IMG/VR virus record: IMGVR_UViG_3300017917_001604
Location: 1 to 43,972 of that record
DNA length: 43,972 nt
Direction: 5' to 3' (one strand)
Origin: a virus
Part shown: in pieces, positions 24,234 through 43,151 of the stretch
How positions within the stretch are numbered: position 1 is the stretch's first letter
Layout of the letters: each line of letters opens with the position of its first letter
Notes under the pieces: model-generated
The model's input: the letters and a program-made list of their open reading frames with translations, nothing else
Told to the model about the DNA's origin: nothing
Databases searched by the model: none
Made by a program: the position numbers and the translations under genes

Positions 24234-24560
24234 ATGTTCGAAACTATTTTCAATTCAATTAAACAAGCCCCTGGTGTTACCTGGTATTTTATTTCTAATC
24301 ATTTAGGAAAAGTGAGTGCACATACTCTAGGTTGGATTAGCATTATCCTAATGCATTTGTCTACCATGCCATCATTAATGGCAGTATTGCTCGATAAGAG
24401 TGATAAACTACCGACTGTTGATTTAGTGCTATTTGTTTGGAGCGCATTAATTACATTATTCTTTAAATCACTTATTGAACGTAATTTCCTATATATTGCT
24501 ACCATTTGTCTAGGCTTTGTAGCTCAAACAGTAATTATGAGTTTAATTCTATTCAAATAA
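24234..24560 (+). CDS. Three-helix membrane protein, holin candidate
   Basis: A 108-residue protein with three hydrophobic helices at about 32-53, 62-80 and 86-107. It follows the hydrolase by ten bases with SD AAGGAA. Adjacency to an endolysin and the three-span topology fit a class I-like holin, but many cyanophage-type membrane proteins look the same, so this remains a proposal. Confidence 0.65.
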   Translation: MFETIFNSIKQAPGVTWYFISNHLGKVSAHTLGWISIILMHLSTMPSLMAVLLDKSDKLPTVDLVLFVWSALITLFFKSLIERNFLYIATICLGFVAQTVIMSLILFK

Positions 24561-24563
24561 ATT

Positions 24564-24585
24564 AACTGTTACGATAATAACAGTT
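24564..24585 (+). other. Hairpin after the membrane protein gene
   Basis: AACTGTTA (24564-24571) pairs with TAACAGTT (24578-24585). No T-run follows, so it is more likely an RNA-stabilising or attenuating hairpin than a full terminator. Confidence 0.4.
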
Positions 24586-24594
24586 ACGGGTGGC

Positions 24595-24602
24595 GTTAAA
24601 TA
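24595..24602 (+). promoter_or_regulatory. Late box GTTAAATA
   Basis: It lies 24 bases before the ATG at 24627, which has SD AAAGGAG. Confidence 0.4.
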
Positions 24603-24626
24603 TTATTAAAGTAAAGGAGTTAGTCT

Positions 24627-24875
24627 ATGTCAAAACGAACCGAAAATGAGGATAACTCCGAAGAGTGGACCATTGAAGATTTAGACCAAAATTCAGATTT
24701 ACGTATCGAAGATGACGATTTTGGAATACTTCTTGACAGTGAAGGTAATTTAAAAACAGTTTTTGGTACTGACGATTTATTCGAAAATCCGCCAGAAAAT
24801 GTTGTTAAAATCTTAGAGATATTCGGTATTGCTAATGCTGCATCTCTAGCCCGAGCAGGCGTTACAATTCACTAA
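24627..24875 (+). CDS. Acidic hypothetical protein common in T4-like phages
   Basis: An 82-residue, very acidic protein (Asp/Glu-rich first 35 residues) with the phrase FGILLDSEGNLKTVF and a C-terminal helix (VVKILEIFGIANAASLARAG). I recall this pattern in T4-like cyanophages without a known function. It has a strong SD AAAGGAG and is followed by a strong terminator, so it ends the late block. Confidence 0.65.
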   Translation: MSKRTENEDNSEEWTIEDLDQNSDLRIEDDDFGILLDSEGNLKTVFGTDDLFENPPENVVKILEIFGIANAASLARAGVTIH

Positions 24876-24984: not shown

Positions 24985-25251
24985 ATGGACTACGTCGTTT
25001 TTCACACTGCAAACCCCCATGCTGATAAGCGTTACTTCAAGTCTGCTAGCGCCGCAAAGCGTAGCACAACTTGCTCCAACCGTAATGCAGGCTACCAGGC
25101 GTATGCGTTCATGGAAGAAACCCTGTTCCTGATCAAGTATCCTGTGGGCATGAAGGTTGTCAAGAATTTGATGACTGGCCAAGACGTGCAAATTGCAGAA
25201 GACACGCCCTGGTGTTGCAACCCGGCCAGCGAAACTTACTGGTCCAATTAA
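24985..25251 (+). CDS. Early small hypothetical protein
   Basis: An 88-residue protein under a strong promoter with SD AAGGAG. The N-terminal half (HADKRYFKSASAAKRSTTC) is basic and could bind nucleic acid, while the C-terminal half is mixed. Its stop overlaps the stop of the opposite-strand endonuclease gene by two bases. Function unknown; host takeover is possible given the promoter strength. Confidence 0.65.
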   Translation: MDYVVFHTANPHADKRYFKSASAAKRSTTCSNRNAGYQAYAFMEETLFLIKYPVGMKVVKNLMTGQDVQIAEDTPWCCNPASETYWSN

Positions 25252-25856
25252 GGTCTGACCATAATAAAGGAACCATCCGGCAGATACTGCCGTTTGGTTC
25301 CTGTTTTCGATGCTGCCATTTTGGCGTTTCTCTCTCTTGAATAAGGATCAATGAGCCCTTTTTCTATTTTGTCTTTACGAGTCTGTACCATACGTTGAGC
25401 AAAATCCTCAGGCATCTTCCAACCGGTTGCTCGTCGTTGGGCTTCTCGCAGTTTAGCTGACTCTTTCATTTTGAATCTAGTTTTATCGCTCTTTTTTATA
25501 CCTTTTGTTTTTCTAGATATTTTTTGTTTTGTATTTTCAGTATGAGATACTGGCCCGCGAAACTTATTACCTCCATTATGTCTGTTTAACCAATCGTTTC
25601 TTCCTGCGGCATTGATTCGTGTAAGAAATCGATGTTCCCAAATTACTGCCGAGGTAGAATCGTTGAATGTTTTTCTTACTTGCCATTCAAACGAGTCGGC
25701 TCCGTATTGCTCGATAAGTTTTTTGACTAAAGAACTAGAACTAAAGTATTTGACCCATAACTCAGAAGGATGGCACCCTCGTCTATGTCTAATGCCATAA
25801 TAGTATTGTTTAGTTGGTCGGTGGTACAAATAATAACTAAATGGAACGGTTTTCAT
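25248..25856 (-). CDS. GIY-YIG homing endonuclease with NUMOD3 repeats, antisense
   Basis: A 202-residue protein on the minus strand. The N-terminus SYYLYHRPTKQYYYGIRHRR is a GIY-YIG-type catalytic module, with a conserved Arg and Glu further on. HTENTKQKISRKTKG and the following Lys-rich segment are NUMOD3-like DNA-binding repeats. Such genes are selfish elements that cut alleles lacking them. The start at 25856 is chosen because a minus-strand late box lies five bases upstream. Sitting antisense between two early genes marks it as an insertion. Confidence 0.85.
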   Translation of the reverse strand: MKTVPFSYYLYHRPTKQYYYGIRHRRGCHPSELWVKYFSSSSLVKKLIEQYGADSFEWQVRKTFNDSTSAVIWEHRFLTRINAAGRNDWLNRHNGGNKFRGPVSHTENTKQKISRKTKGIKKSDKTRFKMKESAKLREAQRRATGWKMPEDFAQRMVQTRKDKIEKGLIDPYSRERNAKMAASKTGTKRQYLPDGSFIMVRP

Positions 25857-26945: not shown

Positions 26946-27032
26946 ATGTGGATTGAAGTGTTGGGCAGAGTTGCATACTTTGCTCTGGGTTTTGTTACTT
27001 GTGTTTATCTCTTTTCGAAAGGCATCCTCTAA
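26946..27032 (+). CDS. 28-residue membrane microprotein
   Basis: SD AAGGAA lies upstream and it stops one base before the SPFH gene. The peptide is mostly one hydrophobic helix (VAYFALGFVTCVYLF). It may act on its own or couple translation of the lipoprotein gene. Confidence 0.5.
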   Translation: MWIEVLGRVAYFALGFVTCVYLFSKGIL

Positions 27033-27033
27033 A

Positions 27034-27831
27034 ATGAATCGCGTTCTTAAACTTTCCGTCCTGGCCGCCGCAGTTACGTTGACGGCCGCTTGTACTCGCA
27101 TCGAAACCGGCGAGGTAGGCCTGCGAGTAGGCTTTGACAAACAAGTTAGCAACCAAGAGCTCTTGCCGGGCAGTTTCAATCAGGTCTTAGTTGGCGATGT
27201 GCTGACCTTCCCTGTTAAGGATGTTAATGTCAAACTCGATGACATGACTCCACTTGCCAAAGATAACAGCACCATGAAGGACTTTGATGCTGTGGTCATC
27301 TACAACCTTAACCAAAGTCAAGTTGCTGAACTCTACAATACCAAAAGCAAGGCATTCCACGTGGATCACAAAGGCGATACTTACCTGATGTATAACTACA
27401 TTCAGCAAACTGCTCGCAATGCTATCTACAAGGCCGCTCGAGACTACGAAGCCTTGGATATGAACGACAACCGTGCTGCCATTGAAGTCAAAGTCAAAGA
27501 ACTCATGCAAAGCACCTTGCGTGATGAGAAACTTGATGGTGCTATCAGCATTACTCAGGTGTTAGTGCGTAACATTCTGCCTGCTGACAGCGTAGTGGCC
27601 AGCGCCAACGATCTGGTCCGTGCCAAGAACGAACTCAAGCAAAAAGAAGTTGAAGTTAAAACCGCCGAAGCAGAAGCACGCCGTATGGCTGCACTGAGCA
27701 ATCAAAGTGCTCAGAGTGTACAGTTCATGCAGGCACAAGCCATGCTGAATATCAGTGAAGGCATCAAGTCAGGCAAGGTACAAACCATTGTTGTGCCAGC
27801 TAACTTTAATGCGCTAATGATGCCTAAATGA
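27034..27831 (+). CDS. SPFH/Band-7 (prohibitin-like) lipoprotein
   Basis: A 265-residue protein. Residues 1-20 are a lipoprotein signal peptide with lipobox TAAC, so the mature protein should be lipid-anchored at Cys20. The SPFH fold follows (GEVGLRVGFDKQV, then FPVKDVNVKLDDMTPLAKDN and DFDAVVIYNLN). A long alanine/glutamate-rich coiled coil comes next (ARNELKQKEVEVKTAEAEAR-like region near 205-230). Host relatives such as HflK/HflC form membrane rings that regulate FtsH. A phage copy could protect phage proteins, block superinfection or tune lysis. Which of these applies is unknown. Confidence 0.85.
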   Translation: MNRVLKLSVLAAAVTLTAACTRIETGEVGLRVGFDKQVSNQELLPGSFNQVLVGDVLTFPVKDVNVKLDDMTPLAKDNSTMKDFDAVVIYNLNQSQVAELYNTKSKAFHVDHKGDTYLMYNYIQQTARNAIYKAARDYEALDMNDNRAAIEVKVKELMQSTLRDEKLDGAISITQVLVRNILPADSVVASANDLVRAKNELKQKEVEVKTAEAEARRMAALSNQSAQSVQFMQAQAMLNISEGIKSGKVQTIVVPANFNALMMPK

Positions 27832-33727: not shown

Positions 33728-33746
33728 AAACAACGACTCGTCAAAG

Positions 33747-33773
33747 AAAAGGTCGCTTAGGCGGCCTTTTTCT
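33747..33773 (+). terminator. Intrinsic terminator
   Basis: AAAAGGTCGC (33747-33756) pairs with GCGGCCTTTT (33761-33770, one G-U pair) around a TTAG loop, ending in T residues. It closes the gene at 33479. Confidence 0.9.
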
Positions 33774-33787: not shown

Positions 33788-33976
33788 ATGCGAGTGATGA
33801 ACAAAAAGATTTGGCCGTTGCAGGTTACTTTGCCTCCATGCGAAATAGGCGTTTGGGGACAGCGTAAGAACTGGCTAAGTAAAAATGTCAATCTACAAAA
33901 TTTTTACATCAACGGCGACACCTATTGTTTTAAAAACAATCAAGATATGTTCTTGTTTACACTTACCTGGGCTTGA
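33788..33976 (+). CDS. LFxLKW array member 1
   Basis: A 62-residue protein, the first of the array, ending NNQDMFLFTLTWA. Beta strands alternate with one helix (QRKNWLSKNVN), and the last strand-helix (YCFKNNQDMFLFTLTW) carries the family tail. The start could also be ATG 33797. It is separated from the rest by the metallophosphoesterase gene. Confidence 0.65.
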   Translation: MRVMNKKIWPLQVTLPPCEIGVWGQRKNWLSKNVNLQNFYINGDTYCFKNNQDMFLFTLTWA

Positions 33977-33985
33977 AAGAAATTT

Positions 33986-34798
33986 ATGAAAATTAGCTTT
34001 ATGTCAGACCTTCACTTGGAATTTGGATATCAGCCACTGCCTGGCGGCGATGTCCTTATTCTTGCTGGCGATATGTGTGAAGCCCGCAGTTACATTAAAC
34101 AGCACCACGAAACTCGTTTGGCCGATGCCGAGCCGGGTACCTACAGATACGTGGACTTCTTTGAAAAAGAATGTGCCAAGTACAACCGTGTGTTTTATGT
34201 TATGGGCAATCACGAACACTATCATGGTCGCTTTGACAAGACCTACGAAGAACTCAAGAGTCGACTACCTGCTAATATAACTCTGCTCGAAAAGGAAGTA
34301 GTTGAGCATAATGGTGTTATATTCTTGGGTGCAACAATGTGGACTAATTGCAACAACATGGACGGTTTGACCATGTTCCATCTCAAGGGCATGATGAACG
34401 ACTACAGGCTAATTCAAAACTATTACCCTGGCCGTAACGTTTATCATAAACTCACACCTGAGCGCACTGTTGAGGAACATGTTAAAACCTTGCAATGGTT
34501 TAGGCACATGCTCAGCGAGCATCGTGACAAACCTTTTGTGGTTATCACACACCATGCACCTAGTTTCAAAAGTGTGCCGCCGCAGTTTGCCGGTGATACA
34601 CTAATGAACGGTGGTTACGCAAGTGATCTTAGCGAAGACATTCTTGATAACGAAAACATCAAGTATTGGATTCATGGTCACATGCATGATCCTGTGGATT
34701 ACGAAATTGGTTCAACAAGAATCATTAGTAACCCTAAAGGTTATGTAGGTTGGGATGGCGATCGAGACTTTGATGCAGATCGTCATATTGAACTATGA
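33986..34798 (+). CDS. Calcineurin-like metallophosphoesterase
   Basis: A 270-residue enzyme with the full two-metal motif set: SDLHLEF (D-x-H), LAGDMCE (GD), VMGNHEHYHG (GNHE), ITHHAPS (second His) and WIHGHMHD (GHxH). It may cleave phosphodiesters or nucleotides; related phage enzymes process DNA, RNA ends or cyclic nucleotides. It is embedded in the LFxLKW array and overlaps the next member by ATGA, so both are made together. Confidence 0.85.
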   Translation: MKISFMSDLHLEFGYQPLPGGDVLILAGDMCEARSYIKQHHETRLADAEPGTYRYVDFFEKECAKYNRVFYVMGNHEHYHGRFDKTYEELKSRLPANITLLEKEVVEHNGVIFLGATMWTNCNNMDGLTMFHLKGMMNDYRLIQNYYPGRNVYHKLTPERTVEEHVKTLQWFRHMLSEHRDKPFVVITHHAPSFKSVPPQFAGDTLMNGGYASDLSEDILDNENIKYWIHGHMHDPVDYEIGSTRIISNPKGYVGWDGDRDFDADRHIEL

Positions 34799-35130
34799 GT
34801 AAAAACATGTTTGTCAGGATGGATGCTCGATATACCGGGTATCCTTCTTGGCAACTTTTTATACCGCGTCCTACTAGGCAGCTAGGTCAAGTAAACTACC
34901 CAACACGCTATGAATCCATGCAAACATTTTTTCAATGGCGCCGTTGGTGTTGGAGTACTTGGGGTCCTAGCAAAGAGCTCTCAGACTGGTTAGACGACTG
35001 TATAACAAGACACAATGTTGTACCCGAAGATCAAAACCCGCATTGGTGTTGGATCAATGATAAAGTTAACACTCGCATCTATCTTCGTGGCGAACAAGAA
35101 CTAACTGCGTTTTTACTAAAATGGGCATAA
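34795..35130 (+). CDS. LFxLKW array member 2
   Basis: A 111-residue protein ending LRGEQELTAFLLKWA. It is the longest early member, rich in Trp (FFQWRRWCWSTWGPSK), with the family helix ELSDWLDDCITRHN and a W-C-W strand. It starts in the ATGA overlap with the phosphoesterase gene. Confidence 0.7.
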   Translation: MSKNMFVRMDARYTGYPSWQLFIPRPTRQLGQVNYPTRYESMQTFFQWRRWCWSTWGPSKELSDWLDDCITRHNVVPEDQNPHWCWINDKVNTRIYLRGEQELTAFLLKWA

Positions 35131-35399
35131 CGTCTAAAATGGATATAAATCGAGATGTCTTTGAAAGCTGGAAGAGTGGCAGGTTTGTTGTTGTTAACTG
35201 GACCGACGACAAAGACGATTTGTTAAACACATCGGGCCATGTTGGAAAAATAGTTGTGCTAACAGATTTTTCTTTTTGGGTCAGCGAGCTAGATAGTTTG
35301 ATACAGTGGTGCTCGGATAATAATTGTCGTCAAAAAGGTATGACCATAGAATTTGACAACGACGATCAACTGTTATTGTTTTGCTTGAGGTGGTCATGA
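35121..35399 (+). CDS. LFxLKW array member 3
   Basis: A 92-residue protein ending DDQLLLFCLRWS. The family helix reads LDSLIQWCSDNNCR. The start is uncertain: ATG 35121 overlaps the preceding gene by ten bases, while ATG 35139 (MDINRDVFE) lies eight bases after its stop. Confidence 0.68.
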   Translation: MGITSKMDINRDVFESWKSGRFVVVNWTDDKDDLLNTSGHVGKIVVLTDFSFWVSELDSLIQWCSDNNCRQKGMTIEFDNDDQLLLFCLRWS

Positions 35400-35617
35400 G
35401 CTTTGAAGTAATCATAACTGACGCTAAGTCAGGAGGATACGAGTTTAATGCAGCCTACTTTGTTAATATAGATCTTTGGGCAAAAGAATTTTGTACCAGC
35501 TATAAAGGTTTCCGAGTTCAAGATGTCAGCGATGTTAGTTACCAGTGGGACGAGATCGCCTGCTACTGGTTTGACCGAGAAGAAGATGTTTGCTTGTTTA
35601 CACTAAAATGGAAGTAA
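35396..35617 (+). CDS. LFxLKW array member 4
   Basis: A 73-residue protein ending DREEDVCLFTLKWK. The start at 35396 (MSFEVIITD) is chosen because it lies in an ATGA overlap like other members; an upstream ATG at 35381 would overlap by 19 bases. The helix is DLWAKEFCTS and the terminal strand CYWFDRE. Confidence 0.68.
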   Translation: MSFEVIITDAKSGGYEFNAAYFVNIDLWAKEFCTSYKGFRVQDVSDVSYQWDEIACYWFDREEDVCLFTLKWK

Positions 35618-35618
35618 C

Positions 35619-35879
35619 ATGGCTAAAGTTTCTGTACAACACTGGCAGTACCACGACGGTGTAACACCAATAAATCCAGGAAGTCAATGGCCTATTGTTC
35701 CCCCTCGTAGTTGGACTTGTTGGGTATACCCTGAGAATGATAACGATTTTGTAGAATGGATGAACGACAACTGCCCATCGGCAGAATGTATTCACCGTTT
35801 TAATGGCGGAGATCCTATGTACACGGTTTCTATTACCGACGAAAAAGAGTGTACAATGTTTAAATTGAAGTGGGCATGA
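35619..35879 (+). CDS. LFxLKW array member 5
   Basis: An 86-residue protein ending TDEKECTMFKLKWA. The middle has DFVEWMNDNCPSAECIHRF, the clearest version of the family W-x2-x-N/D-x-C-P helix. It begins one base after member 4. Confidence 0.7.
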   Translation: MAKVSVQHWQYHDGVTPINPGSQWPIVPPRSWTCWVYPENDNDFVEWMNDNCPSAECIHRFNGGDPMYTVSITDEKECTMFKLKWA

Positions 35880-36163
35880 AGCCCAAGGTCAAAGTAAAAT
35901 ACGTTCCTAAGAACCCAGGAACAGGAGAATATTGGACTGTGGAAGTGACTGAAAAAATTTTTACTGGACCGGACTGTTATACTTGGCGTGAAGTGTTTGC
36001 TTGGCTCCCTGTAAGAACTATTACAGGACAACTTGTCTGGGGGCAACGAGTTTATAAACAGCGTTTTTGGGCAATATGGGGTCGTGGATTTCACCTGGAA
36101 CCTGAAGTAGAATATGCAACGTTTCTTGAACTACTTTCGATCCAAGATACAGACTTGGCGTGA
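35876..36163 (+). CDS. Degenerate LFxLKW array member (6)
   Basis: A 95-residue protein in ATGA overlap with member 5. It keeps part of the tail (EPEVEYATFLELL) but then reads SIQDTDLA instead of a K/R-W ending, consistent with loss of the last residues by frameshift or fusion. It overlaps the next gene by 50 bases in another frame, exactly where the tail would have been. Confidence 0.6.
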   Translation: MKPKVKVKYVPKNPGTGEYWTVEVTEKIFTGPDCYTWREVFAWLPVRTITGQLVWGQRVYKQRFWAIWGRGFHLEPEVEYATFLELLSIQDTDLA

Positions 36164-36533
36164 TCGCCGCTTCTTAAAGAAGCACGGATGTAAAAGCTGG
36201 GACGAATATAACTACAGATTCGACCCTGATAGAAATCAACGGGCTCCAAGAGTAAAAGACTATTACTGTGGGTATCCATATTGGACGCCAATTGAGAATC
36301 GCAAGCACTTGGCATATTATTGGGACGTCCACGAAGACGGCATTTATATTTTGAGCAATTGGTGTAAGGAAAACTTATCCGGTAAGTTTAGGTTTGACTT
36401 CCTTCGCGTCATGAACGCACCAGCAACCGCTTGGCAATGGGAAATAAACGAAATTGGTGGCCGCGACTATATTTTCTTCGCTTGCAAAGACGAGCGTGAC
36501 CTGTTATTGTTTACACTAAGGTGGGGTGCATGA
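36114..36533 (+). CDS. LFxLKW array member 7 with extra N-terminal domain
   Basis: A 139-residue protein ending DERDLLLFTLRWGA. Residues 1-65 are an added basic, Trp/Tyr-rich region (RRFLKKHGCKSWDEYNYRFD, then VKDYYCGYPYW) that I recall from stand-alone T4-like phage proteins. The family unit follows from about residue 66. It is therefore a fusion of two phage small-protein types. Confidence 0.7.
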   Translation: MQRFLNYFRSKIQTWRDRRFLKKHGCKSWDEYNYRFDPDRNQRAPRVKDYYCGYPYWTPIENRKHLAYYWDVHEDGIYILSNWCKENLSGKFRFDFLRVMNAPATAWQWEINEIGGRDYIFFACKDERDLLLFTLRWGA

Positions 36534-36736
36534 AGTACTGGAACAAGGATAAAAGAATTCGGCAAGAGCATTGGATTAGGATTGAACATCAGTGGAATAT
36601 ATCTTATGCAGAACGAAAGCGTCGACTACAGCAATTGCCTGGTACAGGTAAATTCTATATGTATTTTGGCACTGGTACTATATGGTTTGAGCGTGAGCAA
36701 GATGCGATGCTATTTGCACTAACATGGATCAAATAA
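36530..36736 (+). CDS. LFxLKW array member 8
   Basis: A 68-residue basic protein ending EREQDAMLFALTWIK. It starts in an ATGA overlap (MKYWNKDKR). The helix is replaced by a longer basic one (ISYAERKRRLQQLPGTG). Confidence 0.68.
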   Translation: MKYWNKDKRIRQEHWIRIEHQWNISYAERKRRLQQLPGTGKFYMYFGTGTIWFEREQDAMLFALTWIK

Positions 36737-36981
36737 CACTTCACGTTGAAGAACACCAACACAGTGGAGTAAAATACTTCACAGTGCAACCGTATTGTCA
36801 AATCTGGAATTATGATCGTACTGTTGTACTATGGAAAGATATTGAAACTTGGTGTCATAGAACATACGGTCCTAAAGGCAATGCTTGGTATGGTGGAGCC
36901 GAACGGTGGTATGTAAACAACTCAAGAATCTGGTTTAGGGACGAAAAAGATTTAACTATGTTTGTAATGAGGTGGTCATGA
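36724..36981 (+). CDS. LFxLKW array member 9
   Basis: An 85-residue protein ending RDEKDLTMFVMRWS. The start overlaps the previous gene by 13 bases. The helix region is WKDIETWCHRTYGPKGNAWY, followed by the strand SRIWFRDE. Confidence 0.68.
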   Translation: MDQITLHVEEHQHSGVKYFTVQPYCQIWNYDRTVVLWKDIETWCHRTYGPKGNAWYGGAERWYVNNSRIWFRDEKDLTMFVMRWS

Positions 36982-37184
36982 ATTTTGAAATAACAGAACT
37001 TATTCCTAATCTAAACGCTATACATCCCTATACTCACAGGGTTAAGATAGCGAAAACTCAAGATTATGACGAGGTAGATCGTTGGATGGAAGAAAATAAA
37101 GTACGTTATTGTCCTATTAGGCTTACTAATACTTTTTACGTTAGCCATGGCGAACTAACAATGCTACTATTAAAATGGTCATGA
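36978..37184 (+). CDS. LFxLKW array member 10
   Basis: A 68-residue protein ending SHGELTMLLLKWS. It starts in an ATGA overlap. The helix is YDEVDRWMEENKVRYCP. The tail has L in place of F in the core. Confidence 0.68.
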   Translation: MNFEITELIPNLNAIHPYTHRVKIAKTQDYDEVDRWMEENKVRYCPIRLTNTFYVSHGELTMLLLKWS

Positions 37185-37402
37185 CAACCGAACACATAGT
37201 GAGAATCTATCTAAAGACTAAGAATATCTTTGACCTTGACAGTCGCCTAGTTGAAATTACTCAACTAAGGGTTTGGTTAGATGAACTAACTGAATGGCAA
37301 CCTGACAGCTACTATTTAAACTTCCATGCATCTGGTGATTATGTTACAGCTTGGTTTGCCAAAGAAGAACATGCAGTTATTTGTGGGTTGAAATGGGGAT
37401 GA
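37181..37402 (+). CDS. LFxLKW array member 11
   Basis: A 73-residue protein ending AKEEHAVICGLKWG. It starts in an ATGA overlap (MTTEHIVRIY). The helix is LRVWLDELTEW. The tail has C-G where others have F-x. Confidence 0.67.
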   Translation: MTTEHIVRIYLKTKNIFDLDSRLVEITQLRVWLDELTEWQPDSYYLNFHASGDYVTAWFAKEEHAVICGLKWG

Positions 37403-37650
37403 AAGAAGTCAACGGTCATTTATACGAAACGGTAGAGGATTGGCACACTGTAATAGTCCGTCGCAAGTCAGATTGGCGGCAAGAAATTGTCTACAAGACT
37501 GCCTGGCTGAGCGAACATTGCCCGGATGCAGACAGGGACTACGATGCCTATTGTTATCATGAAGACGATTTTAATAACTCAGAACATAGAACCATTTATT
37601 TTTTCCGTGACCCAGAAGTTGCGTTTATGTTTGCATTGAGGTGGGCATGA
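37399..37650 (+). CDS. LFxLKW array member 12
   Basis: An 83-residue protein ending RDPEVAFMFALRWA. The ATG at 37399 lies in an ATGA overlap; the longer upstream frame is inside member 11. The helix TAWLSEHCPDADRD again shows the W-L-x-E-x-C-P pattern. Confidence 0.7.
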   Translation: MKEVNGHLYETVEDWHTVIVRRKSDWRQEIVYKTAWLSEHCPDADRDYDAYCYHEDDFNNSEHRTIYFFRDPEVAFMFALRWA

Positions 37651-37847
37651 TAAAGAGACAATACCGTAGAGGTCAACACGGATATTTCAACACGTTCATC
37701 ATGTTGCATCACCCTGATGATATCATCGATGAACAATTGAAGCAATACAAGGCTACCCTAGCAAAAAGTAAAAACAAACATTATAAGTTGAATGTAAAGT
37801 GGCATGATGAAAAACTATATGCAATTTTTGTGTTGAGGTATTCGTGA
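37647..37847 (+). CDS. LFxLKW array member 13
   Basis: A 66-residue, strongly basic protein ending EKLYAIFVLRYS, with Tyr replacing the family Trp. The Lys-rich helix is LKQYKATLAKSKNKHYK. ATGA overlap at the start. Confidence 0.66.
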   Translation: MIKRQYRRGQHGYFNTFIMLHHPDDIIDEQLKQYKATLAKSKNKHYKLNVKWHDEKLYAIFVLRYS

Positions 37848-38107
37848 AGTTTGAATTTAATCAAGGTGTTCCTGACGGATGTATCAATTGGTTATGGAAA
37901 AATGTAGGACCGGGCAATGTCAAACGCTCGACTATAGAATCTAGCATTCGCCATAAACGATTAGACGGTGATGATTGGTATTACGAGCGTGTACAGTATG
38001 AAATTCCTATCACCAATCCTGAACAAGATTCAAATACAAGACATGTTCCTACAATTTTTATCGAAAACGAACAGAAAGCATTATTGTTTGCACTAAAATG
38101 GCTTTAA
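37844..38107 (+). CDS. LFxLKW array member 14, GTG start
   Basis: An 87-residue protein ending NEQKALLFALKWL. Its GTG start lies in a GTGA overlap with member 13, keeping the array's coupling with a weaker codon. The helix SRIRHKRLD-like segment and an acidic loop precede the terminal strand TIFIENE. Confidence 0.67.
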   Translation: MKFEFNQGVPDGCINWLWKNVGPGNVKRSTIESSIRHKRLDGDDWYYERVQYEIPITNPEQDSNTRHVPTIFIENEQKALLFALKWL

Positions 38108-38376
38108 GCTCACTTAAACAATTATTCAATAAAACTCCTTCCACGTGGAAGGACATAGCACCACCTGGTCAAAAAGTACATTTTATATGGAATGGGTTGA
38201 GCGTGACCAGCGATGTTCGTGATGTATGTTTGGACGGTTCAAAAGACTTTGAGGTATACCAGTGGTGTAATCAGGCAGGAATTTGTGCTACAATACACAT
38301 GAAGCTAGACGGCAACAGTGTTTGGCGAATCAAGGACGAAGGCCAAAGAGCCGTGTTTATACTCAAATGGATGTAA
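38098..38376 (+). CDS. LFxLKW array member 15
   Basis: A 92-residue protein ending DEGQRAVFILKWM. It overlaps member 14 by ten bases. The helix FEVYQWCNQAGIC replaces the usual W-L-D unit. Confidence 0.67.
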   Translation: MALSSLKQLFNKTPSTWKDIAPPGQKVHFIWNGLSVTSDVRDVCLDGSKDFEVYQWCNQAGICATIHMKLDGNSVWRIKDEGQRAVFILKWM

Positions 38377-38378
38377 GT

Positions 38379-38657
38379 ATGTTGTACTACAAAATTCGAA
38401 GCAAGAAGAATCCAGAGTTTTTTCGCAAATCGGACGGATCCTGGAACAAATCAGGCAAAGTCTATGACACCTTAGGCAAACTTCGTGCTACAATTACCAA
38501 CAAGCTCAACAGCTATTACAGCAGTGTTCGTGAAGAACTTGATGACTGGGAAATTGTAGAGTTTGAAGTTACCGTCAAGGAAGTCAAACAGCTACACGAA
38601 GTGATAACTGCCGAGCGTTTGGTTAAGCTATTGGAACGAGACTACTCGAGAGACTAA
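38379..38657 (+). CDS. Hypothetical protein inside the array
   Basis: A 92-residue protein without the LFxLKW tail: YYKIRSKKNPEFF, then KLRATITNKLNSYYSSVREE and a helical end. I recall relatives in other T4-like phages. The start at 38379 (MLYYKIRSKK) is preferred to an upstream ATG at 38367 that would overlap the preceding stop. Confidence 0.65.
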   Translation: MLYYKIRSKKNPEFFRKSDGSWNKSGKVYDTLGKLRATITNKLNSYYSSVREELDDWEIVEFEVTVKEVKQLHEVITAERLVKLLERDYSRD

Positions 38658-38869
38658 TGGTCCAGCAAGTTGTATTACACAAAGATTTGAACACTGTGCT
38701 GGCCATAGTTTACGAAATGCGGGCTATTGGCTATCAGCAAGGGGTAGACTTTGACTTCAGTTACAATCAATCTTATTGGGATGATATGACTGGTGTGGTA
38801 CCAAGCTCTACAGTGTTTGTTTTGTACAATGATCAACTGTCATCCTGGTTTGCACTGAGATTTGCCTAG
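38657..38869 (+). CDS. LFxLKW array member 16 (divergent)
   Basis: A 70-residue protein ending NDQLSSWFALRFA, with Phe in place of Trp. It starts on the stop of the previous gene (TAATG). The N-terminal helix TVLAIVYEMRAIGYQQG and the strand DFDFSYNQ give the same alpha/beta order as the rest. It closes the array. Confidence 0.66.
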   Translation: MVQQVVLHKDLNTVLAIVYEMRAIGYQQGVDFDFSYNQSYWDDMTGVVPSSTVFVLYNDQLSSWFALRFA

Positions 38870-38913: not shown

Positions 38914-38942
38914 TTGACAACAGGTATAAATACTCTTACAAT
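38914..38942 (+). promoter_or_regulatory. Sigma70 promoter
   Basis: TTGACA (38914-38919), a 17-base spacer and TACAAT (38937-38942). A late box is nested in the spacer. Confidence 0.8.
38925..38932 (+). promoter_or_regulatory. Late box TATAAATA nested in a sigma70 promoter
   Basis: An exact late consensus between the -35 and -10 boxes of the promoter at 38914, so the region could be read both early and late. Confidence 0.5.
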
Positions 38943-38996: not shown

Positions 38997-39025
38997 TTGA
39001 CAGCAGGACTAAATAACTATACAAT
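38997..39025 (+). promoter_or_regulatory. Second sigma70 promoter of the RNA region
   Basis: TTGACA (38997-39002), a 17-base spacer and TACAAT (39020-39025). The spacer contains ACTAAATA, a late-box variant. No gene is evident between the two promoters. Confidence 0.8.
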
Positions 39026-39723: not shown

Positions 39724-39799
39724 GCTCGGTTCGTCTATCGGTTTAGGACACCAGCCTTTCACGTTGGTAAGACGGGTTCGATTCCCGTACCGAGTACCA
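39724..39799 (+). tRNA. tRNA-Glu (TTC)
   Basis: A 76-base cloverleaf with encoded CCA. The anticodon stem ccagc/gttgg encloses loop ctTTCac, and the T-arm gggttcgattccc is normal. Confidence 0.93.
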
Positions 39800-39819
39800 A
39801 ATTAAAACTTTCTCAGGTA

Positions 39820-39849
39820 TTGCAAGTTGCATACATATTAGTGTATAAT
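39820..39849 (+). promoter_or_regulatory. Sigma70 promoter for the oxygenase gene
   Basis: TTGCAA (39820-39825), an 18-base spacer and TATAAT (39844-39849). The ATG at 39859 is nine bases downstream without a ribosome binding site. Confidence 0.75.
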
Positions 39850-39858
39850 CACTATAAC

Positions 39859-40467
39859 ATGTACGCATTTGAAAAATCATTACCTAGGCCTGAACAGCCG
39901 TTAGAAAGTTACTATAGTCAGAACTACATTCTTTGGAATGAGTGTGCAGATACTGATATGGTCAATAGGATTGACGCTCTAGGTGAAAGCCTAGACACTC
40001 ATGAGGCCATGATTGGTGGCGCTGAAAATAGCAGTATGCACATACAAACAAGAGTTAGTACTTTAAGTTGGATACACAATAATACTGAGTCGAAATTCTT
40101 GTTTGATTTTGTCATTGACAAAATTGATAGAATAAATTATCATCACTACGGTATGGATTTACGTGGAATGGAATCATTCCAGTTTACAAGATATCCAGTA
40201 GGTGGGCATTATGCATACCATAATGATGTTATTGTTAGAGACAAGTCAATGAGGAAACTCAGTGTTGTAATGGGTTTGACTGACAGTAGCGAATACTCCG
40301 GTGGTAATTTCTTATTATTGCCACATGGTAAAGATCCTGTTAAGTTACGATTTAATCGAGGCGACTTACTTGCATTTCCAAGTTGGATTCCTCACAAAGT
40401 CGAACCTGTTACAGAAGGTTACAGAAAGACGTTGGTGACTTGGGTTTATGGCCCAACACTAGTCTAA
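39859..40467 (+). CDS. 2-oxoglutarate/Fe(II)-dependent dioxygenase (P4H/PKHD-like)
   Basis: A 202-residue enzyme. Iron ligands H121 and D123 are in HYAYHND and the third, H179, is in WIPHKVEPV; R189 in EGYRKTLV binds 2-oxoglutarate. The domain matches prolyl-hydroxylase-type oxygenases common in T4-like phages of aquatic bacteria. The start at 39859 is chosen because the longer frame runs back through tRNA-Glu. The substrate (protein, nucleic acid base or tRNA) is unknown. Its location among tRNA genes makes tRNA or ribosomal protein modification worth considering. Confidence 0.88.
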   Translation: MYAFEKSLPRPEQPLESYYSQNYILWNECADTDMVNRIDALGESLDTHEAMIGGAENSSMHIQTRVSTLSWIHNNTESKFLFDFVIDKIDRINYHHYGMDLRGMESFQFTRYPVGGHYAYHNDVIVRDKSMRKLSVVMGLTDSSEYSGGNFLLLPHGKDPVKLRFNRGDLLAFPSWIPHKVEPVTEGYRKTLVTWVYGPTLV

Positions 40468-40474
40468 GGTTATT

Positions 40475-40564
40475 GGTGCGGTCCCATAATGGTATTGGAG
40501 TGGATTGCTAATCCATCGATCGGTGAAAGCCGGTTTCTGAGTTCGAGTCTCAGTCGCACCGCCA
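40475..40564 (+). tRNA. tRNA-Ser (GCT)
   Basis: A 90-base class II tRNA with encoded CCA, anticodon loop ttGCTaa, variable arm gatcggtgaaagccggt and discriminator G. Confidence 0.92.
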
Positions 40565-40572
40565 AGTTTTAT

Positions 40573-40650
40573 GCATCGGTACCAGAGTGGCTTAATGGCT
40601 CGGATTGCAAACCCGGTGATTCGTAGGTTCGAATCCTACCCGATGCTCCA
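40573..40650 (+). tRNA. tRNA-Cys (GCA)
   Basis: Acceptor gcatcgg/ccgatgc, discriminator T, encoded CCA. The anticodon loop ttGCAaa is closed by an A-C mismatch. Confidence 0.9.
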
Positions 40651-40655
40651 GTTTT

Positions 40656-40711
40656 AGGATGCTAACAGCAACTTTTAACTTTTTTTGGTATAAAAGAAAA
40701 AAACGCATCCT
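40656..40711 (+). other. Imperfect 56-base inverted repeat
   Basis: AGGATGC (40656-40662) pairs with GCATCCT (40705-40711), and inner T-rich and A-rich tracts can continue the stem. The 11 bases aggatgctaac also occur at the primase start (790-800). It lies between tRNA-Cys and a promoter, possibly a processing or termination structure. Confidence 0.4.
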
Positions 40712-40719
40712 GCAATAGG

Positions 40720-40748
40720 TTGACAGCTACCTTATAAGGCTGTACAAT
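40720..40748 (+). promoter_or_regulatory. Sigma70 promoter within the tRNA array
   Basis: TTGACA (40720-40725), a 17-base spacer and TACAAT (40743-40748), upstream of the 7-residue ORF. Confidence 0.82.
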
Positions 40749-40769
40749 TCATTTTTTTAGGAGAAAGAC

Positions 40770-40793
40770 ATGAAACGTTCAGGTAAACGTTAG
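40770..40793 (+). CDS. Seven-residue leader-like ORF
   Basis: MKRSGKR followed by stop, with SD AGGAGA about six bases upstream and a strong promoter just before. The peptide is mostly Lys/Arg, and the two tRNAs that follow are both tRNA-Lys. The coding sequence also forms the hairpin AACGTT-loop-AACGTT. It may be a leader peptide or a by-product of an RNA gene. Confidence 0.4.
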   Translation: MKRSGKR

Positions 40794-40828
40794 TGTCATC
40801 TTTGACCCCCGTATGGTCAGGGATGGCA
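40794..40828 (+). ncRNA. Hairpin RNA after the seven-residue ORF
   Basis: TGTCAT (40794-40799) pairs with ATGGCA (40823-40828), and TGACC (40803-40807) with GGTCA (40815-40819). With the upstream promoter and mini-ORF it could form an attenuator for the tRNA-Lys pair or a short RNA. There is no T-run. Confidence 0.4.
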
Positions 40829-40857
40829 CGTAAAAGACAAATCTAATACGATTCCAT

Positions 40858-40932
40858 CCCTTCGAGGTGTTATGGTAGCATAGCGGACTCTTAATCCGAC
40901 AGGCGTCAGTTCGACTCTGACCGGAGGGACCA
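40858..40932 (+). tRNA. tRNA-Lys (CTT)
   Basis: Acceptor cccttcg/cggaggg, encoded CCA, anticodon loop ctCTTaa on a four-pair stem (cgga/tccg) with a G-A mismatch below. The D-stem is short. Confidence 0.82.
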
Positions 40933-40935
40933 TAT

Positions 40936-41010
40936 GGGGGTATAACTTAACGGCTAAAGTAGTAGGCTTTTAACCTATTAATCAGAGTTCGATTCTCTGT
41001 GCCCCTACCA
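40936..41010 (+). tRNA. tRNA-Lys (TTT)
   Basis: Acceptor gggggta/tgcccct, encoded CCA, anticodon arm gtagg-ctTTTaa-cctat, T-arm cagagttcgattctctg. Confidence 0.9.
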
Positions 41011-41083
41011 TATAAAAACACATTTCACACGGTCTCAAACTCCGTTCCGAAGCATTGCGGGAGGATAGTGTGTTTCTATATGG
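41008..41083 (+). ncRNA. Compact hairpin RNA overlapping the tRNA-Lys 3' end
   Basis: 41008-41022 pairs with 41069-41083 over 14 of 15 positions (CCATATA...TATATGG and AAACACA...TGTGTTT). Inside, CTCCG pairs with CGG(G)AG. The stem includes the CCA of tRNA-Lys(TTT), so folding could compete with tRNA maturation. It could also terminate the antisense transcript of the gene at 41087. Confidence 0.5.
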
Positions 41084-41086
41084 TAG

Positions 41087-41251
41087 TTAAAGATTGTTTA
41101 TGTAGCGTAGTGCTCGATTAATGTTAGTAAAGTAACGTAGTTCAGCAGTACCATTGTAAACGTCATAAACAAGAATGCAGCATACGCCTGCATCGCTGAG
41201 GCTTAGTTGGAAGTTTAACCCCAATGGGGTGTAATTCTTATAAGTCTTCAC
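41087..41251 (-). CDS. 54-residue antisense protein within the tRNA array
   Basis: A minus-strand ORF with GTG start. The protein (MKTYKNYTPLGLNFQLSLSD at the start if GTG is read as Met, then VCCILVYDVYNGTAELRYF and the helix NINRALRYINNL) looks like a small alpha/beta domain with normal composition. An exact minus-strand TATAAATA late box ends five bases before the GTG. Together these support a real late gene in a region otherwise of plus-strand tRNAs. Function unknown. Confidence 0.6.
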   Translation of the reverse strand: MKTYKNYTPLGLNFQLSLSDAGVCCILVYDVYNGTAELRYFTNINRALRYINNL

Positions 41252-41256
41252 AGTAG

Positions 41257-41264
41257 TATTTATA
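41257..41264 (-). promoter_or_regulatory. Minus-strand late box TATAAATA
   Basis: An exact consensus on the minus strand, five bases before the GTG of the antisense ORF and immediately upstream of plus-strand tRNA-Ser(TGA). Confidence 0.55.
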
Positions 41265-41265
41265 T

Positions 41266-41353
41266 GGAAGCGTGGTCGAGTGGCCTATGGCGCTAGTCTT
41301 GAAAACTAGAGATCCGAAAGGGTCCGTGAGTTCGAATCTCACCGCTTCCGCCA
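41266..41353 (+). tRNA. tRNA-Ser (TGA)
   Basis: An 88-base class II tRNA with acceptor ggaagcg/cgcttcc, discriminator G, encoded CCA, anticodon arm ctagt-ctTGAaa-actag and variable arm gatccgaaagggtc. Confidence 0.94.
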
Positions 41354-41360
41354 AAATTTT

Positions 41361-41456
41361 GCCTGTATAGTTTAATGGTAGAACTCCGAGCTTATACCTC
41401 GGCATATGGCGCCAGATTAGCGCATGGTCTAGGTTCGAATCCTAGTGCAGGTACCA
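41361..41456 (+). tRNA. tRNA with anticodon TAT and a long variable arm
   Basis: A 96-base tRNA. Acceptor gcctgta/tgcaggt, D-arm, anticodon arm ccgag-ctTATac-ctcgg and T-arm ctaggttcgaatcctag are all good and CCA is encoded. The variable region is 26 bases and contains GCGC-cagatta-GCGC. TAT would read the Ile codon ATA, but tRNA-Ile normally has a short variable loop. Either an insertion or a tRNA of different identity. Confidence 0.8.
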
Positions 41457-41486
41457 ATTTGTTTTATTGGCAAAATGGCAGTTTTG

Positions 41487-41494
41487 TATAAATA
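41487..41494 (+). promoter_or_regulatory. Late box TATAAATA before the homing endonuclease
   Basis: Exact consensus ending four bases before the ATG at 41499, with no Shine-Dalgarno sequence. Confidence 0.55.
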
Positions 41495-41498
41495 ATGT

Positions 41499-42113
41499 AT
41501 GTATTACATAATTTACAAGACAACTAATCTCATCGACGGAAGGTATTACATCGGTTGTCACCAAACAAATGATCTTAATGACGGATATTTAGGATCGGGG
41601 AAATATTTAAAACGTGCCATAAAAAAGTACGGTAAAGAGAATTTTAAGTTTGAGATTCTCAACTTTGCATCTTCTAAAGAAGAAATGTTTTCAATAGAAA
41701 GATCTATAGTCAACGAAGATTTAGTCAATGATCCGCTGACTTACAATTTAAAATTAGGCGGCAGCGGAGGAAATCCTGGTATTGTTGGAGCTTTTTCTGG
41801 TCGAAGACATTCTGAATTAACTAAAGAAAAAATGCGACAATCAGCGTTGAAGCAAATTACAAGCGATAGCAAACGACAGAAACTTATTGCCAACAATGCA
41901 ATGCGTAACGATCCAGAAGTGAGAAAAAAGGTTTCGAGATCATTGACGGGAAGAACATGCTCTAATGAGCACCGCGCAAATGTAGCGGCAGCTAATCTTG
42001 GCAAGATTTTAGTAAATAACGGGTCTGTTGCAAAAAGAATTTCAAAAGAAAACCTAACATCATTCTTTAATGATGGTTGGGTATTAGGCGGTATGCCTAG
42101 ACGTAAAAAATAA
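41499..42113 (+). CDS. GIY-YIG homing endonuclease with NUMOD3 repeats
   Basis: A 204-residue protein. MYYIIYKTTNLIDGRYYIGC is a classic GIY-YIG module, followed by YLGSGKYLKRAIKKYGKENF and an Ile-Glu-Arg segment with the catalytic Glu. The linker TYNLKLGGSGG leads to NUMOD3-type repeats (HSELTKEKMRQSALKQ) and the DNA-binding end KRISKENLTSFFNDGWVLG. It sits between tRNA genes with its stop two bases before tRNA-Trp. Homing into tRNA arrays is known for phage endonucleases. Confidence 0.9.
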   Translation: MYYIIYKTTNLIDGRYYIGCHQTNDLNDGYLGSGKYLKRAIKKYGKENFKFEILNFASSKEEMFSIERSIVNEDLVNDPLTYNLKLGGSGGNPGIVGAFSGRRHSELTKEKMRQSALKQITSDSKRQKLIANNAMRNDPEVRKKVSRSLTGRTCSNEHRANVAAANLGKILVNNGSVAKRISKENLTSFFNDGWVLGGMPRRKK

Positions 42114-42114
42114 T

Positions 42115-42191
42115 GTATCGGTAGCTCAATTAGGCAGAGCAGGTGCCTCCAAAGCACAAGGTTGTGAGTTCGATTCTTACCCGGTACGCCA
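42115..42191 (+). tRNA. tRNA-Trp (CCA)
   Basis: Acceptor gtatcgg/ccggtac, discriminator G, encoded CCA, anticodon loop ctCCAaa on a four-pair stem. Confidence 0.9.
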
Positions 42192-42201
42192 AACAATTTA
42201 T

Positions 42202-42278
42202 ACGACCGTAGCTCATCTGGATAGAGCACTAGGCTACGAACTTAGGGGTAGGGGGTTCGAATCCCTCCGGTCGTACCA
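42202..42278 (+). tRNA. tRNA-Arg (ACG)
   Basis: Acceptor acgaccg/cggtcgt, encoded CCA, anticodon loop ctACGaa (expected to be modified to ICG), T-arm gggggttcgaatccctc. Confidence 0.93.
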
Positions 42279-42284
42279 ATCAAT

Positions 42285-42360
42285 GGTGCCATTAGTGTAG
42301 TGGCCTGCACCTCGCTCTGTGAAAGCGATAGTACCGGATCGATACCGGTATGGCACCCCA
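42285..42360 (+). tRNA. tRNA-His (GTG)
   Basis: Encoded extra 5' G opposite C73, as in bacterial tRNA-His. Acceptor gtgccat/atggcac, anticodon arm tcgct-ctGTGaa-agcga, encoded CCA. Confidence 0.93.
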
Positions 42361-42365
42361 AATAT

Positions 42366-42439
42366 GCTCTTGTAGTACAAAGGCAGTACACTACTTTGGT
42401 AAAGTAGAGACGCTGGATCGTTACCAGCCTGGAGCACCA
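42366..42439 (+). tRNA. tRNA-Thr (GGT)
   Basis: Anticodon arm ctact-ttGGTaa-agtag, encoded CCA. The acceptor gctcttg/ctggagc has one T-T mismatch. Confidence 0.9.
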
Positions 42440-42445
42440 AATTAT

Positions 42446-42520
42446 AGTGATGTAGGACAATGGTAGTCCACCACCCTCATAAGGTGTCTGTTGCAGGTTC
42501 GAGTCCCGCCATCACTACCA
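42446..42520 (+). tRNA. tRNA with anticodon CAT (Met or Ile2)
   Basis: Acceptor agtgatg/catcact, encoded CCA, anticodon loop ctCATaa. Whether it is elongator Met or lysidine-modified Ile(CAT) cannot be settled by eye. Confidence 0.88.
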
Positions 42521-42524
42521 ATAT

Positions 42525-42598
42525 ACCCGGATAGTTAAAAAGTATAACACACCCCTGATAAGGGTGAATCGAAGGAGCGTTACCTTCTCTGGGTACCA
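42525..42598 (+). tRNA. tRNA-Ile (GAT), copy 1
   Basis: Acceptor acccgga/tctgggt, anticodon arm caccc-ctGATaa-gggtg, encoded CCA. The D-arm is AT-rich and weak, and the T-arm aaggagcgttacctt lacks the normal TTCGA loop. Confidence 0.82.
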
Positions 42599-42603
42599 AT
42601 AAT

Positions 42604-42678
42604 GCCTCCGTAGCTCAGGGGTAGAGCAATGTCTTGATAAGGCATGGGTCGGTGGTTCGAAACCACCCGGCGGCACCA
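42604..42678 (+). tRNA. tRNA-Ile (GAT), copy 2
   Basis: Anticodon arm atgtc-ttGATaa-ggcat, good D- and T-arms, encoded CCA. The acceptor has one T-C mismatch. It is a second GAT tRNA six bases after copy 1 but dissimilar in sequence. Confidence 0.88.
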
Positions 42679-42686
42679 AAATTTAT

Positions 42687-42764
42687 TCCGGTAGAGGCGC
42701 CATGGTGGCAACCGCGTGACTGTTAATCACGATTAGCTAGGTTCGATCCCTAGTACCGGAGCCA
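42687..42764 (+). tRNA. tRNA-Asn (GTT)
   Basis: Acceptor tccggta/taccgga, discriminator G, encoded CCA, anticodon arm cgtga-ctGTTaa-tcacg. Confidence 0.92.
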
Positions 42765-42770
42765 AACAAT

Positions 42771-42854
42771 GTGCGTTTAGTCAAAATGTTAGGGCATCAC
42801 GACGCAGGGCCTAAAAACCTTGAGGTGCGGGTTCGAATCCCGTAACGCACGCCA
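42771..42854 (+). tRNA. Unusual tRNA with 8-base anticodon loop (anticodon AAA or TAA)
   Basis: Acceptor gtgcgtt/aacgcac, discriminator G, encoded CCA and T-arm gcgggttcgaatcccgt are sound. The anticodon stem caggg/ccttg encloses eight bases, cctaaaaa. With T at position 33 the anticodon would be AAA (Phe codon TTT); other readings give TAA (Leu). The D-region is also longer than normal (GTC...GAC enclosing 18 bases). Confidence 0.65.
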
Positions 42855-42863
42855 ACAATTTAT

Positions 42864-42986
42864 GGGGCCTTGGTGTAATGGTAGCACGTTAAACGACGGA
42901 TATCCTGCCAAGGATACAGACAGCAACACTTTTCAATTTCCACTATGAAGGGAAAGGTCCAGGTTCGAATCCTGGGGGCTCCACCA
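42864..42986 (+). tRNA. 123-base tRNA-like gene, Gly(GCC)-like
   Basis: Acceptor ggggcct/gggctcc, D-arm gtgtaatggtagcac, T-arm ccaggttcgaatcctgg and CCA are tRNA-like. The middle is about 48 bases too long. TATCC/GGATA encloses TGCCAA, which resembles a Gly GCC anticodon arm with one base missing, followed by a separate hairpin (tttcc...ggaaa). It could be an intron or insertion, a pseudo-tRNA, or another RNA with tRNA-like ends. Confidence 0.55.
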
Positions 42987-42992
42987 AATTAT

Positions 42993-43067
42993 GCTCTTGT
43001 AGTTTAGCAGGGAAAATTCCGGTTTTGTAGTCCGGCGTCGGCAGTTCAAACCTGCCCGAGAGCTCCA
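42993..43067 (+). tRNA. tRNA-Thr (TGT)
   Basis: Acceptor gctcttg/cgagagc, discriminator T (unusual for Thr), encoded CCA, anticodon loop ttTGTag closed by a T-T mismatch, T-arm ggcagttcaaacctgcc. Confidence 0.82.
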
Positions 43068-43075
43068 AGTATACT

Positions 43076-43151
43076 GCCCGCGAAGTATTAGTTGGTGGTA
43101 CACCGCCCTCGTAACGCGGAGGATTCAGTTCGAGGCTGAACGTGGGCACCA
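43076..43151 (+). tRNA. tRNA-Thr (CGT)
   Basis: Acceptor gcccgcg/cgtgggc, encoded CCA, anticodon loop ctCGTaa with a C-C mismatch next to the loop. The third Thr tRNA of the array. Confidence 0.84.

Follow-up and report, generated by a model that had tools for sequence, protein, structure and literature searches.

Long rows of paralogous genes are already known from jumbo phages. In the large phages 121Q and G, long paralog arrays have been ascribed to tandem duplication, with genes that are 'very similar' to one another (PMC5646251), and the expansion of about 35 copies in phage G consists of a zinc ribbon (PMC7824862). We describe here a row of small genes at positions 33788-38869 of a 43,972-base virus record, IMGVR_UViG_3300017917_001604 (the window, by which we mean this whole stretch), whose source is, to judge from its sequence, a T4-type myovirus. 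The likeness to 121Q and phage G lies in large phages carrying long paralog rows, but the copies there are very similar, whereas those of the window array have diverged strongly and fall into single-copy orthologous groups. A profile of the family described below has no match in 121Q, RaK2 or G at an expect value (E) <=1, and apart from the remark on 121Q and G we found nothing in the literature on the family or the arrangement. What appears new is a conserved protein ending that doubles as ribosome-binding site and start codon.

Closer counterparts were found among cultured phages, where the profile matched 10 of the 16 records searched, with 35 matches in Sinorhizobium phage Phosso (E<=0.01), six in Atu_ph07 and three in PA5oct, and none in T4, KVP40 or Vibrio phage 2.275.O. 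A first-pass annotation of the window had mentioned single proteins with similar ends in other T4-like phages; there are none in T4 or KVP40, while PA5oct and Atu_ph07 do have small numbers of them. The proteins of PA5oct (gp237, gp210 and gp209) and Atu_ph07 (gp255 and gp258), all labelled 'hypothetical protein', have the same helix and an ending of the type F-x-F...A-x-x-F-x-L, and PA5oct gp237 adjoins a metallophosphoesterase, gp236, as in the array. They differ in being few per genome, in lacking the L-R-W ending, and in having a tail without the coupling signal. Phosso carries its copies in several clusters of a 469-kilobase (kb) genome (e.g. features 133, 135-137 and 172), with F-K-L-[TS]-W endings mostly without AGGTGG, and its features 176 and 178 have transmembrane-like N-terminal parts. 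In the Phosso locus L101 (L numbers are our labels for loci), two stretches on the - strand, 24357-24800 and 25044-25526, combine such N-terminal parts with the family's F-K-L C-terminal ending.

The shared ending and its codons

On the + strand, 15 open reading frames (ORFs) within 33788-38869 share the ending [FILVCM]-x-[LM]-[KRT]-[WFY], followed by one or two residues, or, in the last of them, ALRFA. Of the 172 + strand ORFs of the window, this loose pattern picks out 14 in the array and a single further one, and on the - strand it occurs in 1 of 258; the strict form F-x-[LM]-[KRT]-W has 11 matches, compared with none among the 258. These counts confirm the array with a common C-terminal ending reported by the first-pass annotation, and the array is larger than was seen there. 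A profile hidden Markov model detects 10 of the 15 members at E<0.01, and the remaining five were assigned by tail pattern, one of them (end 37402) additionally by a clear ortholog. The earlier count of sixteen genes needs correction, since two ORFs, a small one at 35876-36163 and another at 38367-38657 that had been taken for a degenerate copy, are tail-less and hence excluded. Nor is the row unbroken: a metallophosphoesterase at 33986-34798 (phrog_1649, E 5e-55), which is not a member, lies between members 1 and 2. The ATGA and GTGA overlaps said to join most genes exist at seven junctions and one junction, respectively; at three or four others the K/T-W codons themselves supply the next ATG (AAATGG, ACATGG).

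The endings at 35399 (TTG AGG TGG TCA TGA) and 36981 (ATG AGG TGG TCA TGA) illustrate how the tail is written. The R-W codons, AGGTGG, read as the Shine-Dalgarno sequence of the next gene, and TCATGA holds its ATG. In coupled members, as is shown by their nucleotides, the codons for the last residues (L-R-W-S/A-stop) double as Shine-Dalgarno sequence and start of the following gene, UUGAGGUGGUCAUGA. At the ends 36736 and 38107 the next ATG lies inside the K/T-W codons (ACA TGG or AAA TGG).

Codon choice across the family follows these junctions. Of 290 tail R codons, 64% are AGG, compared with 8% of 1535 body R codons; the share is 72% for ATGA junctions, 71% for GTGA junctions and 1/25 (4%) where no start is nearby (Fisher p 2e-11), this last being a small control of 25 R codons. 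GAGGTG precedes an ATGA junction in 116 of 285 family cases but in at most 1 of 98 large non-family ORFs, and W is the penultimate residue at such junctions in 210/285 and 1/98, respectively. Among non-ATGA cases, a TGG codon preceded by A opens the next frame (>=40 codons) in 51 of 90 tails as against 7 of 581 bodies. In 26 cases the downstream gene that uses the tail signal does not belong to the family. Translation is therefore probably coupled in the cell.

The protein motif is independent of this signal, since the hydrophobic [FLM]-x-[LMI] is kept in 85% of uncoupled members, and PA5oct and Phosso retain F-x-L with other codons. Signal-linked codons and a signal-independent motif thus point to two constraints that overlap at the tail, a caution for cases in which overlapping genes encode proteins with a common tail and that tail is explained by function alone. 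Because Phosso mostly lacks AGGTGG, coupling would be a lineage feature laid over the protein motif.

Extent, predicted fold and evolution of the family

The metallophosphoesterase, a marker of the array both in PA5oct and in relatives, served as query to collect 80 relatives from IMG/VR, and in many of these similar ORFs adjoin it. With an iterated profile built on the C-terminal 58 residues, 141 matches were obtained at E<1e-3, all on the coding strand. After two further scans with separate groups, the coding-strand totals were 920 at E<1e-3 and 1283 at E<1 over 241 loci, with no match on the opposite strand at either threshold, although several queries returned some contigs repeatedly, so that match totals are not phage counts. 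Matches this far above chance bear out the ending in the profile test proposed for it. There are 722 distinct members at E<0.01, and no fewer than 197 of these 241 loci contain the family, with at least five members in 94 and at least ten in 23; locus L135 has as many as 23 within 12 kb, and up to 33 are found on individual contigs of 320-374 kb. Array groups ending in HEELYxxLxLKWS or SEELLxxLxLRWS were missed by the profile (L135 end 9804, L102 end 4124 and L139 end 2416, with further ORFs of this type at L136 end 7701 and L106 end 1685), and the family is therefore wider than counted. No family was found in Pfam, PHROGs, NCBIfam or PDB at the curated cut-off or E<0.001, and tblastn with single members gave chance-level matches and nothing more. 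The family is undescribed, being in none of the libraries that we searched.

Two dissimilar members, 7 and 9, were modelled by AlphaFold2 with ortholog alignments, and both models have one common fold. The model of member 9 (predicted local distance difference test score, pLDDT, 91.6; predicted template modelling score, pTM, 0.79) has strands at 4-13 and 16-25, a helix at 30-48, strands at 62-65 and 68-71, and a helix at 74-84. That of member 7 (pLDDT 92.1, pTM 0.79) starts with N-terminal helices, followed by a strand at 56-60, a helix at 76-87, strands at 92-100 and 117-124, and a helix at 127-137. The predicted common core is beta-alpha-beta-beta-alpha, with the conserved ending as the last helix. 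The conserved module is about 50 residues long and takes in the acidic turn and the W of the first helix, and outside the tail the domain contains 5.8% tryptophan compared with 1.3% in large ORFs. This makes the free docking tail considered in the first-pass annotation unlikely: the tail is predicted to be the C-terminal helix of a folded domain, and part of its constancy comes from coding for a ribosome-binding site. A Foldseek search of PDB found no significant match (best E 0.74), and the match to a SUI1/eIF1-like fold was likewise not significant (aIF1, 4mo0: template modelling score 0.45, E 1.7). Among predicted viral proteins, the matches were confined to uncharacterised ones from uncultured phages, with weak Atu_ph07 matches in addition for member 7. 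Given a profile far above chance and two models with a common fold, the observation of an array stands.

The members have separated widely, with 12-35% identity to the first member in the window. Their isoelectric points run from 4.3 to 10.0, and thus they have no uniform nucleic-acid-binding chemistry. Of the 20 largest tight orthologous groups (64, 30, 26, 17 ... contigs), 19 have one copy per contig, and in the three largest this holds for 64/64, 30/30 and 26/26 contigs. Between related arrays, the ratio of nonsynonymous to synonymous substitution rates (dN/dS) is 0.12-0.20; sequence ahead of the module has values of 0.09-0.38. The array genes are thus old, differentiated paralogs under purifying selection and not the product of a recent arms-race burst. 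Of the history first proposed for the row, duplication with deep divergence is supported by one family with one predicted core fold, while the fast divergence of an arms race finds no support on a measurable timescale, with single-copy groups and low average dN/dS values.

Possible roles and competing explanations

We read the locus as polycistronic, with genes that are coupled in translation and encode paralogs, old and differentiated, from a single undescribed family of phage proteins, and put the probability of this reading at about 0.5. The module would be a portable cassette: a coding sequence placed ahead of it would become a folded protein, and the module would pass ribosomes on to the following gene. 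A phage could then keep genes for many small proteins in one long row, rearrange them and make the proteins together, each of which may act on a separate target through its variable part, and the array offers a concrete model for the growth and reshuffling of phage effector operons. A role as co-translated accessory proteins for host takeover or counter-defence is one that we favour tentatively, at slightly less than even odds; the small size of the proteins, their patchy distribution, the lack of a relative in one bacterial scan, their wide span of isoelectric points and their place beside the metallophosphoesterase and a tRNA cluster are counted for it. Several points weigh against our interpretation. 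The predicted single fold is drawn from two modelled members of 15, and we found no record of known function, expression or phenotype for any member. The search of bacterial and archaeal genomes, in which no relative was found, relied on a single pattern, taken from the member-9 orthologous group. Phosso retains its F-K-L-[TS]-W ending mostly without the signal. Finally, dN/dS indicates constraint, whereas direct inhibitors of evolving defences should show positive selection.

The N-terminal parts of relatives bear on what the variable regions might do. PF07068 (Gp23) scores above its gathering threshold (24.4 bits) in the N-termini of members in L125, L105, L136 and L103, with 49, 36, 28 and 30 bits, and by blastp 20 of 615 family N-terminal parts match gp23. 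Among control ORFs, the matches number 5 in 3173 (other small ones on the coding strand) and 5 in 5123 (opposite strand), and three of the former five (L135 9804, L102 4124 and L139 2416) are array ORFs missed by the profile, ending in LRWS or LKFS. The fusions lie at L125:4195-4530, L105:5480-5833, L136:7647-8060, L136:9214-9615, L103:3356-3703 and L170:6927-7274. A capsid protein of 398-402 residues, 42-52% identical to the fragment over about 30 residues, is also encoded on large contigs of the group, L136's among them. Unlike whole gp23, the pieces have only about 30-60 residues and are fused to the array module. Other relatives carry P-loop-like (GRxTGKS), NrdA-like (NLCxEI) or endolysin-like (GRGLxQxTGR) pieces, sometimes two or three in one protein, and the pieces vary between phages within one orthologous group. 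A terminase origin for the P-loop N-termini was weak against T4 gp17 (z 0.1 to 4.7), and DnaB_C reached E 0.03-0.06 only, hence our term P-loop-like. The same fusions recur in separate contigs (L136/L172, L125/L128 and L121/L134), which led us to reject an assembly artefact. No window member carries any such piece, and blastp of the window N-terminal parts found no gp23 match.

These pieces lend some weight to the idea of decoys, already raised in the first-pass annotation; in the form considered here, some members would present fragments of conserved phage proteins and so misdirect host sensors (gp23 Gol for Lit; capsid for CapRel-type systems). The first gp23 piece, in L125, aligns with T4 gp23 residues 93-131, and the Gol region presumably occupies about residues 93-121. 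Gol is a 29-residue region and the most conserved part of gp23 (review, PMC3014915), and capsid proteins set off bacterial immunity (PMC9712102). The capsid-fragment N-termini of relatives make phage-encoded mimicry of immune triggers a testable question. However, the support is indirect and comes from relatives; the gp23 matches are a small minority, a Gol-like piece might equally trigger Lit, and since conserved motifs are easiest to detect by similarity search, a preference for them is unproven. We consider decoys in this strict sense quite improbable. A broader version seems unlikely but somewhat less so: a cassette for making and shuffling effectors, in which a C-terminal fold whose codons restart translation would turn any captured coding fragment into a stable protein expressed along with its neighbours, and through which the phages would display pieces of their own most conserved proteins (gp23 Gol, P-loop, NrdA active site, endolysin) as decoys or competitors against the host proteins that recognise these. 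We hold in similar doubt an adaptor set, in which the shared module would bind a single partner, be it a host protein, the ribosome or a phage complex, leaving the variable parts to recruit different targets. A constant module with variable N-terminal parts fits it, as do relatives whose N-termini are segments of phage core proteins and could bind those proteins' partners, but hydrophobic or aromatic residues predominate at the conserved positions, which are thus probably part of the core rather than exposed.

Two further explanations would deny the proteins much of a role. The array could be a neutral by-product of recombination at repeated junctions, yielding paralogs with little function; the common GAGGTGGTCATGA junction provides micro-homology, and N-terminal pieces do vary inside one orthologous group. 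Conservation as single copies over many phages and the low dN/dS values already disfavour this, and we regard it as very unlikely. Least credible is a tail conserved purely as a nucleotide-level ribosome-binding and start signal on otherwise unrelated proteins. The tail has a strong bias to AGG, TTG, TCA and GCA codons tied to coupling, and F-x-[LM]-[KRT]-W occurs in 78% of ATGA/GTGA-coupled members compared with 38% of those without a nearby start. Yet the profile reaches well beyond the tail, as far as the acidic turn and the first helix with its W, uncoupled members and the PA5oct and Phosso proteins keep the hydrophobic motif without the signal, and two members have a common predicted core, by which this explanation is largely refuted already.

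Members and surroundings of the array

All array genes are on the + strand, between a terminator-like hairpin and a promoter-like site. Member 1 (33788-33976; 62 residues, or 59 from the ATG at 33797; tail FTLTWA) is not coupled to the next gene. Member 2 (34795-35130; 111 residues; FLLKWA) has orthologs in at least eight contigs, and member 3 (35121-35399; 92 residues, or 86 from the ATG at 35139; FCLRWS) ends with AGGTGG and ATGA. After member 4 (35396-35617; 73 residues; FTLKWK) and member 5 (35619-35879; 86 residues; FKLKWA; ATGA overlap) come the modelled member 7 (36114-36533; 139 residues; FTLRWGA), with orthologs in 22 loci, and member 8 (36530-36736; 68 residues; FALTWIK), whose T-W codons contain the ATGG start of member 9. 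Member 9 (36724-36981; 85 residues; FVMRWS), also modelled, belongs to the orthologous group spanning 64 contigs. ATGA overlaps follow in members 10 (36978-37184; 68 residues; LLLKWS) and 11 (37181-37402; 73 residues; CGLKWG; ortholog in L170 and others), AGGTGG with ATGA in member 12 (37399-37650; 83 residues; FALRWA), and GAGGT with GTGA in member 13 (37647-37847; 66 residues; FVLRYS). Member 14 (37844-38107; 87 residues; FALKWL) has a GTG start and holds within its K-W codons the ATGG start of member 15 (38098-38376; 92 residues; FILKWM). The last member (38657-38869; 70 residues; FALRFA), to which an ORF in L005 (end 7554) is similar, has AGA for its tail R and no coupled gene downstream.

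Directly upstream of the array, the sequence reads as an intrinsic-terminator-like hairpin (33746-33771, + strand) with TATAAT after it, and directly downstream is a promoter-like TTGACA-17-TACAAT (38914-38942, + strand), within which sits the T4 late-promoter-like TATAAATA. A second promoter-like site with the same hexamers and 17-nucleotide spacing lies 83 bases away (38997-39025). An Rfam search of the array found no element, and the sole match of a DNA-level search of phage records was the transfer RNA (tRNA)-Glu beside it. The array lies next to the metallophosphoesterase and a tRNA cluster, surroundings in which T4-type phages keep accessory genes. The cluster, comprising the 17 tRNA genes of the window (39724-43151), is interleaved with a 2-oxoglutarate (2OG)-Fe(II) oxygenase (39874-40467) and with a SegE-like GIY-YIG ORF (41499-42113) that falls under the Pfam cut-off. 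Elsewhere the window encodes a gp41-like helicase with 47% identity to its counterpart in the Pseudomonas jumbo phage PA5oct, an ATP-dependent DNA ligase and, as read off translations, ribonucleotide reductase genes. Between the two reductase genes is an isocitrate lyase (14296-15501; PF00463, E 3e-102), an unusual metabolic gene in a phage, and a SPFH/Band 7 (prohibitin-like) protein is encoded at 27022-27831 (PF01145, E 4e-19).

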